The position numbers and the translations under genes are program-made. The notes below the pieces were generated by a model. That model was not told the DNA's origin and ran no database searches. It worked only from the letters and a program-made list of their open reading frames with translations. A stretch of 33,618 bases of DNA, taken from Patescibacteria group bacterium. Its GTDB lineage: Bacteria > Patescibacteriota > Minisyncoccia > Minisyncoccales > GWA2-38-27. This document shows, piece after piece, positions 3,315 to 29,717 of this stretch. Each line of letters opens with the position of its first letter. Position 1 is the stretch's first letter. The DNA is taken from positions 1 through 33,618 of the forward strand of contig JAHJSY010000004.1 of assembly GCA_018830125.1 (NCBI GenBank). Reading direction: 5' to 3'.

Positions 3315-3378
3315 GGTTGACCTGGTTGACAAGAAATTAATAATAGATTAAAATAAGAATATAATAAATTATCCACAG

Positions 3379-3445
3379 ATAGCAGGCGTATGCGAAAAGC
3401 CCACAACGAAAAGGGCACACGCGAATAAGTCCTGCCGAGGAAAGA
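3379..3445 (+). ncRNA. Ribosomal protein L10 leader (cis-regulatory RNA)
   Basis: agcaggcg...gcacacgcgaataagtcctgccgaggaaag resembles the L10 leader core and lies directly upstream of rplJ-rplL. Confidence 0.8.
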
Positions 3446-3457
3446 AGTTTTTTATTT

Positions 3458-3484
3458 GTGGTTTATTAATAAGCCACTTTTTTT
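3458..3484 (+). terminator. Intrinsic terminator (attenuator) between L10 leader and rplJ
   Basis: GTGGTTTATTAATAAGCCAC hairpin followed by 7 T. Confidence 0.7.
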
Positions 3485-3533
3485 ATAAATAATTTGCATC
3501 ATTTGTATTTATTTGTAGATTGGCATTATAACA

Positions 3534-4500: not shown

Positions 4501-4536
4501 AAAAACTGCCCGAGGTCCGACCTCGGGCAGTTTTTG
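4501..4536 (+). terminator. Rho-independent terminator of rplJL
   Basis: aaaaactgcccgaggt-ccg-acctcgggcagttttt, near-perfect hairpin with T tract. Confidence 0.92.
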
Positions 4537-20280: not shown

Positions 20281-20357
20281 CAAATTTATCCCTAAGTACT
20301 AATTACTCACACTCACACAATCGCTTTTCTGCTATTCTAGATGTTTTTATTTATCCA

Positions 20358-20389
20358 TTTTCTTCCGTGCTACACAGCAGGGAAGAAAA
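20358..20389. repeat. 32-nt hairpin repeat, copy A (downstream of TrpR-like gene)
   Basis: TTTTCTTCC-g-TGCT-acac-AGCA-g-GGAAGAAAA. Confidence 0.88.
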
Positions 20390-20409
20390 TGTTTATTTTA
20401 AATTCTTAC

Positions 20410-20931
20410 CTATAAGTTTTTGCTTAATTGTTTGTATATTTTGGATTTGTGATCTAGCTTTTCAACAGTTCTCTTAATTTTTTCTTTTTGGCTTTTATTC
20501 ATAGTCTTTACAATATCTTCAATTAAGAGTTGAGGCCAAAACATAATGGGGTAGCGTTTTCTATTTCTTCTTCTTTCATATTCTATTAATTTTTGACTTC
20601 CTGTTTTTGTTGATTTTTCTTTAAACTCTTTTTTATTTCTTTTAGCAACCAATCTGAAGCCCTCGCCCGATTCCAAAAGCCATTGATTAACTTTAGCTAT
20701 CGTTTGATGACTTATGTGTAGTTTGTCTTGAATTTCTCTATATCCCTTTCCTTCTATTAAGAGTTGAGCGGTTTTTATTCTTTTAGCTAGCATTATCATC
20801 TCTTCTCTTGTTAATAAATCGGTCAGTAGATTCATTATTTCTGTTGCGTTGTTTAACAAGACGAGTGATTGACAAAGTGTTTCCAATAAGCTTCCTACAT
20901 CACTTTTAGAAATATTTGAATATTTTTTCAT
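20410..20931 (-). CDS. TrpR/YerC-like DNA-binding protein
   Basis: LTDLLTREEMIMLAKRIKTAQLLIEGKGYREIQDKLHISHQTIAKVNQWL matches TrpR/YerC-YecD style HTH. Confidence 0.85.
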   Translation of the reverse strand: MKKYSNISKSDVGSLLETLCQSLVLLNNATEIMNLLTDLLTREEMIMLAKRIKTAQLLIEGKGYREIQDKLHISHQTIAKVNQWLLESGEGFRLVAKRNKKEFKEKSTKTGSQKLIEYERRRNRKRYPIMFWPQLLIEDIVKTMNKSQKEKIKRTVEKLDHKSKIYKQLSKNL

Positions 20932-20940
20932 AGTGTTCTG

Positions 20941-20972
20941 TTTTCTTCCGTGCTACACAGCAAGGAAGAAAA
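20941..20972. repeat. 32-nt hairpin repeat, copy B (upstream of TrpR-like gene)
   Basis: TTTTCTTCC-g-TGCT-acac-AGCA-a-GGAAGAAAA; 31/32 identical to copy A. Confidence 0.88.
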
Positions 20973-25369: not shown

Positions 25370-25486
25370 ATCTATTTCTTTCTAATTGTGAAAAGATCAA
25401 TTTTTGTTTCGTATCTGACAATAAATTCATTTTACTTATTTATTCTAAAATGTCAAGCTTTTTCTGTGGATTATGGAAAAACAAAA

Positions 25487-25524
25487 CAACGTATTAATAC
25501 AGTGATAGCGTTATTAATACGTTG
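25487..25524. repeat. Perfect 13-bp-arm inverted repeat
   Basis: CAACGTATTAATA (25487-25499) / TATTAATACGTTG (25512-25524), 12-nt loop. Confidence 0.88.
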
Positions 25525-25544
25525 CTTCGGATACTTTCTAATCG

Positions 25545-25600
25545 AATGTTCAACACTCGGTGACTAACACTGCGGTGTTCGACACCGAGTGATTAACATT
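25545..25600. repeat. Nested palindrome copy 2 (56 nt)
   Basis: AATGTT-caa-CACTCGGTG-act-AACAC-tgcg-GTGTT-cga-CACCGAGTG-att-AACATT. Confidence 0.9.
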
Positions 25601-25680
25601 CTGAGCTCCAAAAGTGTACAACTTAGGTTTGCACACTGGCTTTCTTGATTTTTTGAGGGATATATAGTAAGATATAGTTA

Positions 25681-26715
25681 ATGGAATTTGTTATTATTAG
25701 TTTTCTGGTTTTATTGCTTTTTGTTTTAGTTGGAGGCTTTTTTTTATTGTGGAAGAGAAAGCCAGAAGGACCTTCGGAATCATTAGTAATGTTGCAACAG
25801 CAGTTAAATAACATCAATCAAGTTTTAGATAATAAATTATCAGAATTTAACAAAGTTAATCAAACCCAGTTTGGACAAAGTACAAGAATTATTCAAGATG
25901 TTACTAAACAACTAGCTCGTTTAGATGAAACTAATAAACAGGTCGTTAGTGTTGCGGATCAATTAAAGAGCTTACAAGATGTTTTAAAGAATCCAAAACA
26001 AAGAGGAATTTTGGGAGAGTATTACTTAGAAACGGTTTTGAAAAATGTTCTTCCGCCAGAGTCTTATCGAACTCAATATTCTTTCAAAAATGGAACGATT
26101 GTTGATGCTGTCGTTTTCGTTGATAAACATATTATTCCTATTGATTCTAAATTTAGTTTAGATAATTATAATAGAATTTTGGAGACTCAAGGTGATGAAA
26201 GAAAGAGATATGAAAAGGCTTTTGTTAACGATTTGAAAATAAGGATTGATGAGACATCAAAGTATGTAAAACCAGAAGAAAATACAATGGATTTTGCTTT
26301 TATGTTTATTCCCTCGGAAGCAATTTATTACGATTTATTAATTAATAAGATCGGAGCAGTTACAGAGGATACTAATAACTTAATTCATTATGCTTGGAAA
26401 AAAAGAGTTATTATTGTTTCCCCTACAACATTTTCAGCATTTTTACAGGTTGTCCTTCAGGGTTTAAGAAATCAACAAATTTCCGAAAAAGCCAAAGAAA
26501 TAATTAAACAAGTGGGGCGATTAGGGAGACATATGGGAATATACGAAGAATATATTAATAAAGTCGGAAATCATTTAAGTACAACGGTAAATACTTACAA
26601 TAAAGCTCACAAAGAACTTGCCAAAGTAGATAAAGATGTGGTAAAAATAACAGGCGAAGAATCAACAATTAAATTATCAGAGGAGGAAATAGAAACTCCT
26701 TTGCTAGAAGAATAA
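25681..26715 (+). CDS. rmuC: DNA recombination protein RmuC
   Basis: N-terminal TM; LKNPKQRGILGEYYLETVLKNVLPPESYRTQY; DAVVFVDKHIIPIDSKFSLDNYNRI; AFMFIPSEAIYYDL. Confidence 0.92.
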   Translation: MEFVIISFLVLLLFVLVGGFFLLWKRKPEGPSESLVMLQQQLNNINQVLDNKLSEFNKVNQTQFGQSTRIIQDVTKQLARLDETNKQVVSVADQLKSLQDVLKNPKQRGILGEYYLETVLKNVLPPESYRTQYSFKNGTIVDAVVFVDKHIIPIDSKFSLDNYNRILETQGDERKRYEKAFVNDLKIRIDETSKYVKPEENTMDFAFMFIPSEAIYYDLLINKIGAVTEDTNNLIHYAWKKRVIIVSPTTFSAFLQVVLQGLRNQQISEKAKEIIKQVGRLGRHMGIYEEYINKVGNHLSTTVNTYNKAHKELAKVDKDVVKITGEESTIKLSEEEIETPLLEE

Positions 26716-26719
26716 AATT

Positions 26720-27031
26720 ATGTTAGCAATAATTAAAACAGGGGGGAAGCAATATAAGGTTTCTCCAAAAGACAAGATTAAAATAGAGAAATTAGAGATA
26801 GAAGAGGGTAAAGAAGTAATTTTTGACCAGGTTCTGTTGGTTGATAAAAATAAGAAAGTTGAAATAGGTGATCCTTTAGTAAAAGGAGCTAAGGTAATTG
26901 GAAAAGTTTTAAAACAAGACAGAGCTAAAAAGGTTATTATCTTAAAATACAAACCAAAAACAAGAGAAAAAACAAAAAAGGGTCATCGCCAGCCCTATAC
27001 AGAAGTAGAAATTATTAAGATCGAGAATTAA
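26720..27031 (+). CDS. rplU: 50S ribosomal protein L21
   Basis: MLAIIKTGGKQYKVSPKDKIKIEKLEIEEGKEVIFDQVLLV...KYKPKTREKTKKGHRQPYTEVEI. Confidence 0.95.
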   Translation: MLAIIKTGGKQYKVSPKDKIKIEKLEIEEGKEVIFDQVLLVDKNKKVEIGDPLVKGAKVIGKVLKQDRAKKVIILKYKPKTREKTKKGHRQPYTEVEIIKIEN

Positions 27032-27614
27032 GGGCGGATTCTAAAGTGTCGGGGTCAGCGTATTCTAATTCTCCTCCAACTGGTAAACCTCGTCCCAACC
27101 GAGTGATGGATATGTTATAAGAAGCTAAGCTTCTTTTAACTAATAGCATAGTTGCCTCACCTTCGGTTGTTGGACTTAGGGCGATTATTACTTCTTTGAA
27201 ATCGCCTTTTTCTATTTTTTGTTTTAATTCTTCTATTCTTAGGTTCTTATCATTTTTCTTTTTTAAACTAATCGTTCCTCCAAGGACAAAATAGAAACCT
27301 TTATATGTTTTTGTTTTTTCTATGGTTGTTAAATCAGATTCTTTTTCTATCACACAAAGCAGTTCTTTATTTCGACCATTATCTGAGCAAATATCGCAAA
27401 CTTGCCCTGAGCCTGTTGAAGGGTCAAAAGTGTCAAAACAGGAAGGGCAGATTTTAATAGAATCTTTCAAGGCGTCTATTGAGAAGCTTAGCTCCTTAAT
27501 TTCTTCCGGAGAGAGCTTGATTAAATAAAAAACAAATCTGGTGGCTGTGCGTGGCCCAACAGTAGGGAATTTGCTAAATAAATTAATAAGTTTTTGGATG
27601 GATTTTGGATACAT
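27015..27614 (-). CDS. recR: Recombination protein RecR
   Basis: MYPKSIQKLINLFSKFPTVGPRTATRFVFYL; zinc-finger CPSC..CDIC; LLCVIEKESDLTTIEKTKTYKGFYFVLGG. Start at 27614 preferred over 27689. Confidence 0.93.
   Translation of the reverse strand: MYPKSIQKLINLFSKFPTVGPRTATRFVFYLIKLSPEEIKELSFSIDALKDSIKICPSCFDTFDPSTGSGQVCDICSDNGRNKELLCVIEKESDLTTIEKTKTYKGFYFVLGGTISLKKKNDKNLRIEELKQKIEKGDFKEVIIALSPTTEGEATMLLVKRSLASYNISITRLGRGLPVGGELEYADPDTLESALNSRS
27401..27425. repeat. Short repeat-like insertion inside recR zinc-finger region
   Basis: cttgccctgagcctgttgaagggtc, translated DPSTGSGQ between the two Cys pairs. Confidence 0.6.
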
Positions 27615-27618
27615 GTAT

Positions 27619-27693
27619 GCGAATAGCCTACTACGAATAGGCACATACGAATGATTCGTATCATTGGCATAAGATTCGTAGATTGGCATTATA
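27619..27693. repeat. Short direct/inverted repeat cluster between dnaB and recR
   Basis: ACGAAT-g-ATTCGT palindrome; direct repeat GATTCGTATCATTGGCATAA / GATTCGTAGATTGGCATTA. Confidence 0.7.
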
Positions 27694-29044
27694 TTTCATG
27701 TTTTTCTAAATTTTTGAAACAGACCGTTTGATCATCAAAATATAATTCAATCTTTCCGATGGGTCCGTTTCTATGTTTAGCGATAATAATATCTGATATG
27801 TTTTTTCTAGTTGTTTCTGGATTATATCTATCTTCTCTATAAATAAGTAAAACTATATCCGCATCCTGCTCAAGAGATCCTGATTCGCGAAGGTCGGCTA
27901 AGCGGGGGACTTGAGGGGTTCTGTGTTCTACGGCTCTTGATAATTGAGATAGGGCCAAAACAGGAACATCTAATTCCCTGGCTAATCCCTTAAGAGAGCG
28001 AGATATTTCAGATACTTGCTGGACAGAACTAGCCATTGGATTTCTAGATTCCATTAATTGTAAATAATCAATAACGATTAAGCCCAAGCCATGTTCTGCC
28101 TGAAGTCGTCTAGCCATAGCTCTCATCTGTAAAACATTAGCAGAAGCGGCGTCATCAATATATAGTGGAGCTTCGGAAAGAAGACTCATAGCACGTTGAA
28201 TCCTTTCAAAGTCGTTATTATCGCCTTCGTGAGATAATTTTCCGGTTCTTAATCTCCACAAATCAATACCAGCCAAAGAAGCGATGCATCTATCTACAAT
28301 TTGATCAACAGACATTTCTAAGCTGAATATTCCAACAGGCTTTTTTTCTTTTATGGCGATATTGGTTGCAAAGTTCAAAGCTAAGGTTGATTTTCCGATG
28401 GACGGTCTAGCGGCTAAAATAATAAGATCTGATTTTTGGAAACCAGCTAGGATATTATCAAGGTCTTTGAATCCAGAAGCAACTCCGCGTGGATTTCCTT
28501 GATGCTTTGATAATTTATCAATTCTATCAAAAGCATCTTCTAATGTATCCTTAACCCATACGAATTTTTGGCTTAAGCTTCCTTGGGCGATGCTAAATAT
28601 TCTTTGTTCAGCTTTGTCTAATAATTCGTCAACATCTTTTTCTTCATCGTGGCCCATCATGTCTATTTCCTGGCTAGCCGAAATAAGATCTCTTAAGATT
28701 CTTTTTCTTTGAATAATTTTGGCGTAATTTGAAACATGAGAAGCGGTTGGAACGGTATTAATAAGTTCAGTTAAATAACTGTTTCCGCCGATGTTATCTA
28801 AAAACTTTTTTTCTTTAAGTCGTGCTGAAACGGCTAGAACATCAATGGGATTATTTTTTTCAAAAAGATCTACAACGCATTGATATATCTCTTGATGACC
28901 TTGGTTATAGAAATCTCTCTTTGTCAAAGAATCAACAACCTTAGCGATGGCGTTTTTATCTAACATTAAAGAACCGAGCAGACATTTTTCGGCGTCAATA
29001 TTTTGAGGTGGTAATTTTGATATGATATCTTTATTATTAGCCAT
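27689..29044 (-). CDS. dnaB: Replicative DNA helicase DnaB
   Basis: LPPQNIDAEKCLLGSLMLD; AARPSIGKSTLALNFA; LGLIVIDYLQLM; LSQLSRAVEHR; RESGSLEQDADIVLLIYR. Confidence 0.97.
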   Translation of the reverse strand: MANNKDIISKLPPQNIDAEKCLLGSLMLDKNAIAKVVDSLTKRDFYNQGHQEIYQCVVDLFEKNNPIDVLAVSARLKEKKFLDNIGGNSYLTELINTVPTASHVSNYAKIIQRKRILRDLISASQEIDMMGHDEEKDVDELLDKAEQRIFSIAQGSLSQKFVWVKDTLEDAFDRIDKLSKHQGNPRGVASGFKDLDNILAGFQKSDLIILAARPSIGKSTLALNFATNIAIKEKKPVGIFSLEMSVDQIVDRCIASLAGIDLWRLRTGKLSHEGDNNDFERIQRAMSLLSEAPLYIDDAASANVLQMRAMARRLQAEHGLGLIVIDYLQLMESRNPMASSVQQVSEISRSLKGLARELDVPVLALSQLSRAVEHRTPQVPRLADLRESGSLEQDADIVLLIYREDRYNPETTRKNISDIIIAKHRNGPIGKIELYFDDQTVCFKNLEKHEI

Positions 29045-29102
29045 ACTTATTTTTACCCTGTTAAAGATTAAAAGTCAAAAAACTAAAAATTAAAAGTGAA
29101 GA

Positions 29103-29160
29103 AATGTTTTTCACCGAGTGTCAAACATCCTGAGATGTTGGTCACTCGGTGTAGAACATT
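29103..29160. repeat. Nested palindrome copy 3 (58 nt)
   Basis: AATGTT-ttt-CACCGAGTG-tca-AACATC-ctga-GATGTT-ggt-CACTCGGTG-tag-AACATT; reverse complement of copy 1 except one compensated base pair. Confidence 0.92.
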
Positions 29161-29178
29161 TCGGATATTTTCTAATCG

Positions 29179-29234
29179 AATGTTCAACACTCGGTGACTA
29201 ACACTGCGGTGTTCGACACCGAGTGATTAACATC
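29179..29234. repeat. Nested palindrome copy 4 (56 nt)
   Basis: Identical to copy 2 except the last base; separated from copy 3 by 18 nt also found before copy 2. Confidence 0.92.
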
Positions 29235-29465
29235 CTCAGTATTTAGATTTGGGGTTGACAAAGGTGAAGAAATAAGTATAATGGAGAGTACATAGAACTT
29301 TGACAATAAACCGCGAGATAGCGGATTACATATACATTTAACAAGAGGAAAGAATGTGAATTAATAATTGATGTTTTTCCGGAAGGGGAGAGCTGGAAGA
29401 GCATAAACGGATTTATGTCTCTAAATATTCGAAAGGACGCCAACTTTTTATTTGGAGATTAAAAA

Positions 29466-29717
29466 ATGAGAACTTCAAGACAAAATCTGAAGTGGAGAAA
29501 GAGGGAATGGAAAGGTGTTTCAAGAGAAACCAAAATCAAACTGTTGAAAGGTTTAGTCATTTTGACCTTGTTTCTCTTTGGTGTCAGTGCTTTGTTTAGC
29601 AACTTCGGGTGTGCGTTCACTCATAGAGGAGAGACCAGCGTTGGTCTCTTTAAGGATGTTGAAAGAACCACGAACGAAAGTTCGAGTTTATCTGTTCATC
29701 GTCCCGCACGCGATTGA
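29466..29717 (+). CDS. Small hypothetical single-TM protein
   Basis: ORF with SD-like ggag; KLLKGLVILTLFLFGVSALFSNFGCAF hydrophobic segment. Confidence 0.5.
   Translation: MRTSRQNLKWRKREWKGVSRETKIKLLKGLVILTLFLFGVSALFSNFGCAFTHRGETSVGLFKDVERTTNESSSLSVHRPARD

Follow-up and report, generated by a model that had tools for sequence, protein, structure and literature searches.

We analysed a stretch of 33,618 nucleotides (positions 1 to 33,618, hereafter the window) from the genome of a Patescibacteria group bacterium, and found that it carries four nested hairpins of two sequence subtypes, A and B. An earlier note, made from the letters of this DNA alone, had reported four such copies with subtypes differing in sequence, and all four were located at its positions. 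Below, G000 is the genome holding the window, other G-numbers are other genomes and C-numbers are contigs; bit scores of the window hairpins are covariance-model scores. The first hairpin, of type A on the plus strand, spans 1589-1656 with its feet (ATGTTCTACACCGGGTGACCAACAT-CTCAGG-ATGTTTGACACCCGGTGAAAAACAT; 79.1 bits), and its core (1595-1650) starts 1 bp past the stop of an open reading frame (ORF) and ends 58 bp ahead of the next. The second, of type B on the plus strand, spans 25540-25605 (core 25546-25599; feet AATCGA and TCTGAG; 89.8 bits). The remaining two occupy the divergent region between dnaB (27689-29044, minus strand) and an ORF at 29466 (plus strand). Here, a type A hairpin on the minus strand lies upstream of dnaB (29098-29165; core 29104-29159; feet CCGAA and TTCTTC; 77.4 bits), and a type B hairpin on the plus strand (29174-29239; core 29180-29233; feet AATCGA and CCTCAG; 85.5 bits) is followed after 21 bp by a perfect TTGACA-16-TATAAT promoter-like site (29255-29282). 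The conserved 20-nt spacer TTCGGATATTTTCTAATCGA (29160-29179) joins the two into a head-to-head A+B composite (29098-29239), which resembles the REPIN and BIME (bacterial interspersed mosaic element) arrangements of repetitive extragenic palindromic (REP) sequences and is identical to C3:179-320 at 135 of 142 positions. We also found that TTCGGATACTTTCTAATCGA, upstream of the hairpin at 25540-25605, matches this spacer although the A partner is missing.

The window hairpins are real and far above chance. The window holds eight matches to the half-unit RTGTTNNNCACNNNGTGNNNAACAY, compared with an expectation of 0.16 (0 of 100 shuffles), and each of the four copies folds with a z-score of -5.0 to -8.8. 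Each arm is a 25-nt near-palindrome, RTGTTnnnCACnnnGTGnnnAACAY; an inverted pair of such units forms a hairpin of 54-56 nt, and the 132-nt composite consists of two of these hairpins placed head to head. The layout described in the earlier note (a stem of 5-6 bp, a 3/3 internal loop, a stem of 9 bp, a second 3/3 loop, a stem of 5-6 bp and a 4-nt loop) holds for the window copies, and its 3/3 loops can be refined to mismatch-pair-mismatch, with a central pair that covaries in the outer loop and is an invariant C-G in the inner one. In 21 of 23 rows, the 9-bp stem is bordered by A.A mismatches on either side. The feet are short and conserved, with TCGA, CCGAA or TACG on the 5' side and YCTNAG on the 3' side at the level of the family. 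Subtype B mostly has ATCGA/G before the hairpin and YCTNAG after it, and subtype A mostly CCGAA before and TTCT after.

To extend this to the whole genome, 617,556 bases were scanned with the half-unit, allowing up to two mismatches. We identified 60 matches, one of which is a chance overlap, leaving 59, and none with the reversed half-unit as control. Of the 35 elements of the family, 22 are hairpins, 11 are single arms and 2 are doublets whose arms stand 9 nt apart. The 22 hairpins are 54-56 nt long with a loop of 4 or 6 nt, and all of them lie between ORFs in fetched stretches that are 86% coding. Since several copies sit at most about 450 bp from contig ends, the true copy number may be higher. 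The A-B composite with its 20-nt spacer was seen again at C3:184-313, where the spacer is near-identical, and on the other strand at C47:1984-2113, where it is similar; its outer flanks differ among sites, indicating that the composite dispersed as one piece. Other dispersed perfect palindromes, of the GGAGCTWAGCTCC and AGTGTGCAAACCTTAGGTTTGCACACT types, also occur in this genome, at C35 (locus L024; 143, 744, 835, 1195 and 5413) and at further loci.

We evaluated pairing in an alignment of 24 doublets with 6-nt flanks, and found that 98.5% of the pair cells of the long arm-to-arm hairpin are paired. Double-sided changes were found in 11 of 20 pairs, in 49 cells (0 of 500 shuffles as high), a count that exceeds the number of independent compensatory events because the copies are related. 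Independent changes are clear for the 1595 copy (A-T to G-C), for C27:11453 and C48 (cores AACCGAGCG/CGCTCGGTT and CATCSGATG, respectively), and for the foot at C54 and C31 (A-T to G-C). Sliding the partner strand abolishes the pairing signal. These compensatory changes support selection for the long arm-to-arm hairpin, and the genome holds many covarying intergenic copies, as the earlier note had thought a covariance-model search might reveal. Folding within the arm was tried as the selected structure and rejected, without the compensatory support seen for the long hairpin.

The same alignment bears on whether each 25-nt arm is instead a duplex palindrome for a dimeric protein, that is, an operator or nucleoid-protein site. 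In favour of this, the arms are palindromic and vary very little at their TGTT/AACA and CA/TG positions. However, conservation tracks the arm-to-arm pairing, and the copy at C27:11453 has lost its arm palindromes and kept the long hairpin. The copies are also few and patchy, and missing from most genomes of the same family, leaving this explanation extremely unlikely. A role at the RNA level, with the hairpins duplicated as terminators, mRNA stabilisers or regulators, is very unlikely as well. The 54-56-nt hairpins end without a T tract, which extends what the earlier note had seen for most copies, and a terminator scan of 25400-29500 was negative at them, although the hairpins fold strongly and some single 25-nt palindromes are framed by A/T tracts like bidirectional terminators (for example, C35:420 and C36:62920). 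Window copies are found both upstream of divergent genes and between genes on the same strand. No Rfam family matched at its gathering score; the only matches were miRNA-like and sub-threshold, and an Rfam RNA identity was rejected. Finally, an RNA-level role leaves unexplained the matched palindromes at both ends of transposase genes, described next. Of the three options offered by the earlier note, the REP/MITE-like element is thus retained, and the structured RNA and the protein-binding hairpin are less likely. Integron attC sites and DNA-uptake sequences were also considered, and nothing suggested either, although no search was aimed at them.

There is no transposase in the window, as noted earlier; the genome, however, has seven PF01797 (Y1/HuH) transposase genes above the cut-off. 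In most of the 77 Y1 ORFs that we gathered from this genome and others in the order, one or both ends lie near a palindrome of about 20-31 nt that is almost perfect; it is often identical at the two ends of a gene and differs between genes. An identical palindrome stretch of at least 15 nt was present at both ends of 38 of 71 Y1 genes in the order, compared to 7 of 286 control ORFs; all seven are duplicate loci of these very transposases, which leaves a true control of 0/279. In the rest of the phylum matched ends are rarer (10/42, two of the 42 belonging to the order), and none were found for the six short Y1 genes tested. The more identical two proteins are, the more similar are their palindromes (Mantel r 0.55; 0 of 5000 permutations), though only above about 50% identity. 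In addition, 17 of 29 cleanly scored genes carry a third copy of their own palindrome inside the gene, in frame at codons 53-73 and before the HuH motif in 17/17. The C1 gene of this genome is among the carriers; L137, L117, L082 and L129 are other examples.

Two loci in this collection stand apart. At C47 (L028, 3211-3933), a Y1 ORF with an altered HuH motif (DHAH) and without matched end palindromes adjoins a RodA-like ORF. Genome G035 (loci L114 and L162-L167) holds 11 copies of ATGTTTAACATGTCATGTTAAACAY, and its one transposase has a different end palindrome.

These genes also allow the hairpins to be weighed as IS200/IS605-like relics, in which ends of insertion sequences (IS) remain after loss of the body and no repeat is mobilised in trans. 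The palindromes bracket the transposase genes tightly, as in a small IS, and the C1 locus has this form. We found that each of the 77 transposases compared has its own palindrome and that none is a high-copy identical unit. The 132-nt composite also keeps its own spacer where it recurs, so that the repeats have spread as repeats; the relic explanation is very unlikely.

In a clade of eight transposases (support 100/99), extended to 13 (100/100), most palindromes read nTAGAC..GTCTAn around a variable middle. L075 carries a variant (ATGTCCAACAC..) and L141 departs from the form, and the clade has subclades that share CTC/GAG or GTC/GAC. The members in G021 (C5) and G218 (C19) have the palindrome cores CACTCGGTG and TGTTCGACACTCGGTGTCGAACA, respectively, and the member in this genome (G000:C1:3794-4435) has sister palindromes with a CATCSGATG middle at both ends and inside the gene. 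The window arm type matches the palindrome type of this 13-member clade and is assignable to it. The covariance model, trained solely on the hairpins of this genome and run over 247 genomes, matched 21 places in the home genome and only four other genomes. Matches stood beside transposases of the clade at G021 C5 (on both sides), G213 C5 and G213 C31. A layout search that ignored the core found three doublets in other genomes, at G213 C5 and G180 C13, each adjoining a Y1 gene, and at G117 C21, flanked by an L27-like and a CTP-synthase-like ORF. Doublets with the exact core gave one match in 84,980 species genomes, inside a long ORF of a metagenome-assembled genome, and none in viral contigs.

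At C55, two window-type hairpins lie just upstream of a Y1 transposase gene, which is itself located between rpoB and rpoC (L030, 3669-4388). This transposase, 56 bp from the hairpins, was considered as their owner and rejected: it falls in another clade, and a palindrome of its own, CAGAGACCSGGTCTCTG, marks the two ends and the interior of the gene. Thus, proximity alone would have misled.

Taken together, the link to transposases and the assignment of the palindrome to a clade suggest that the hairpins are non-autonomous mobile repeats of the REP/REPIN kind, derived from the terminal palindrome of one Y1/HuH clade of the type of REP-associated tyrosine transposases (RAYTs), a reading to which we give a probability of about 0.82. 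The hairpins are dispersed and intergenic, selected as long hairpins and paired by palindrome type with one clade, and a single-strand transposase most likely mobilises them. In this process, the sequence would become single-stranded, for example during replication, and the hairpin would fold. The transposase may then recognise the folded hairpin through its paired A.A mismatches and feet, cut at the feet and rejoin the hairpin elsewhere. The A.A mismatches are a plausible recognition feature because two conserved mismatches in the stem of the E. coli REP are reported to be needed for activity (PMC8266576). Insertions into genes would be lost, so that the remaining copies are intergenic. The exact CACYSRGTG core flanks the G021 and G218 relatives and not the C1 gene, and therefore either the C1 protein (213 aa) would be the acting enzyme or a near relative that has since been lost or was not assembled. 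The C1 protein has the motifs NHFH and YVHRN and a Y1_Tnp domain (PF01797) above the cut-off; a PDB sequence search with it found no relative.

Several observations, besides the relatedness of the copies, weigh against a REP/REPIN-like origin. The GT[AG]G (GTAG) foot of described REPs is absent from the hairpin feet. The RAYT profile NCBIfam NF047646, with a cut-off of 80 bits, is not reached by C1, C55 or the G021 relative (33.1-40.9 bits); the C52 protein scores 65.9 bits. The matched-ends test was negative for 33 of the 71 transposase genes. The only gene of the cognate clade in this genome has a slightly different core (CATCSGATG versus CACYSRGTG), so that the C1 enzyme must accept both unless a relative of the CACYSRGTG type was lost or is hidden in an assembly gap. 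G170 and G171 carry such palindromes without a gene of the cognate clade. Finally, the genus is represented by this genome alone, with no empty site for comparison.

Beyond this genome, we consider it rather probable that the order, and at lower frequency the phylum, has an undescribed class of Y1 transposases. In this class, the recognition palindrome would occur in up to three co-changing copies, at the two ends and in frame before the HuH motif, and would have been amplified as nested hairpins in some lineages. Small genomes holding many co-diverging transposase-palindrome pairs offer a natural series for the co-evolution of an HuH enzyme with its hairpin site, and the same series bears on the retention of a site copy inside the enzyme's own gene. 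The finding also accounts for scattered hairpins of such genomes, which would otherwise pass for terminators or unidentified RNAs.

The window holds further structured elements. The Rfam L10 leader (RF00557) lies at 3355-3492, ahead of L10-like and L7/L12-like ORFs, and a perfect 17-bp hairpin after these ORFs (4501-4535) is likely a terminator. Similar hairpins (TTTTCTTCCGTGCT nnnn AGCAnGGAAGAAAA) at 20345-20402 and 20941-20972 border a small TrpR-like ORF (20410-20931, minus strand) on either side, so that a further gene may have matched hairpins on both of its sides.

The system described here works like REP/REPIN repeats with their RAYTs and has most of their defining features, apart from the GTAG foot and the NCBIfam cut-off. 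Descriptions of REP/RAYT systems come for the most part from groups such as Proteobacteria, Bacteroidetes and Cyanobacteria (PMC6006769), and the way RAYTs spread REPs is still an open question (PMC8266576). Our literature searches for RAYT, REP and IS200 in Patescibacteria found nothing relevant, though most subscription papers fell outside the search. As in the REP/REPIN/BIME and TnpAREP/RAYT systems (REPtrons; PMC6006769, PMC8266576), a Y1/HuH transposase is flanked by its own palindrome family, with one palindrome per transposase, co-evolution of the two, and many dispersed intergenic copies that form inverted doublets; stem mismatches are known from one REP type. The differences are the missing GT[AG]G foot, the doublet of doublets, and the perfect odd palindromes, mostly of 20-31 nt, that enclose the gene, usually no more than tens of bases away; the REP reports that we found also do not extend to the host order. 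In TnpAREP subclass 2.4 (RAYT group 4), too, the gene contains its cognate palindrome in frame. Its REP lies between the HuH and Y motifs, whereas the 17 inserts scored here all precede HuH, a position that differs from that given by Quentin et al. 2018 (PMC6006769). An intrinsic terminator has a T tract after its hairpin, which is not the case here. IS200/IS605 elements share the Y1 domain (PF01797) and a palindrome at each gene end; here, the same, mostly perfect palindrome stands at both ends, and the genes diverge rather than forming identical multicopy elements. TIRYTs, Y1 transposases with terminal inverted repeats (PMC6006769), have repeats that bracket the gene, whereas in the system described here each end is itself a hairpin.
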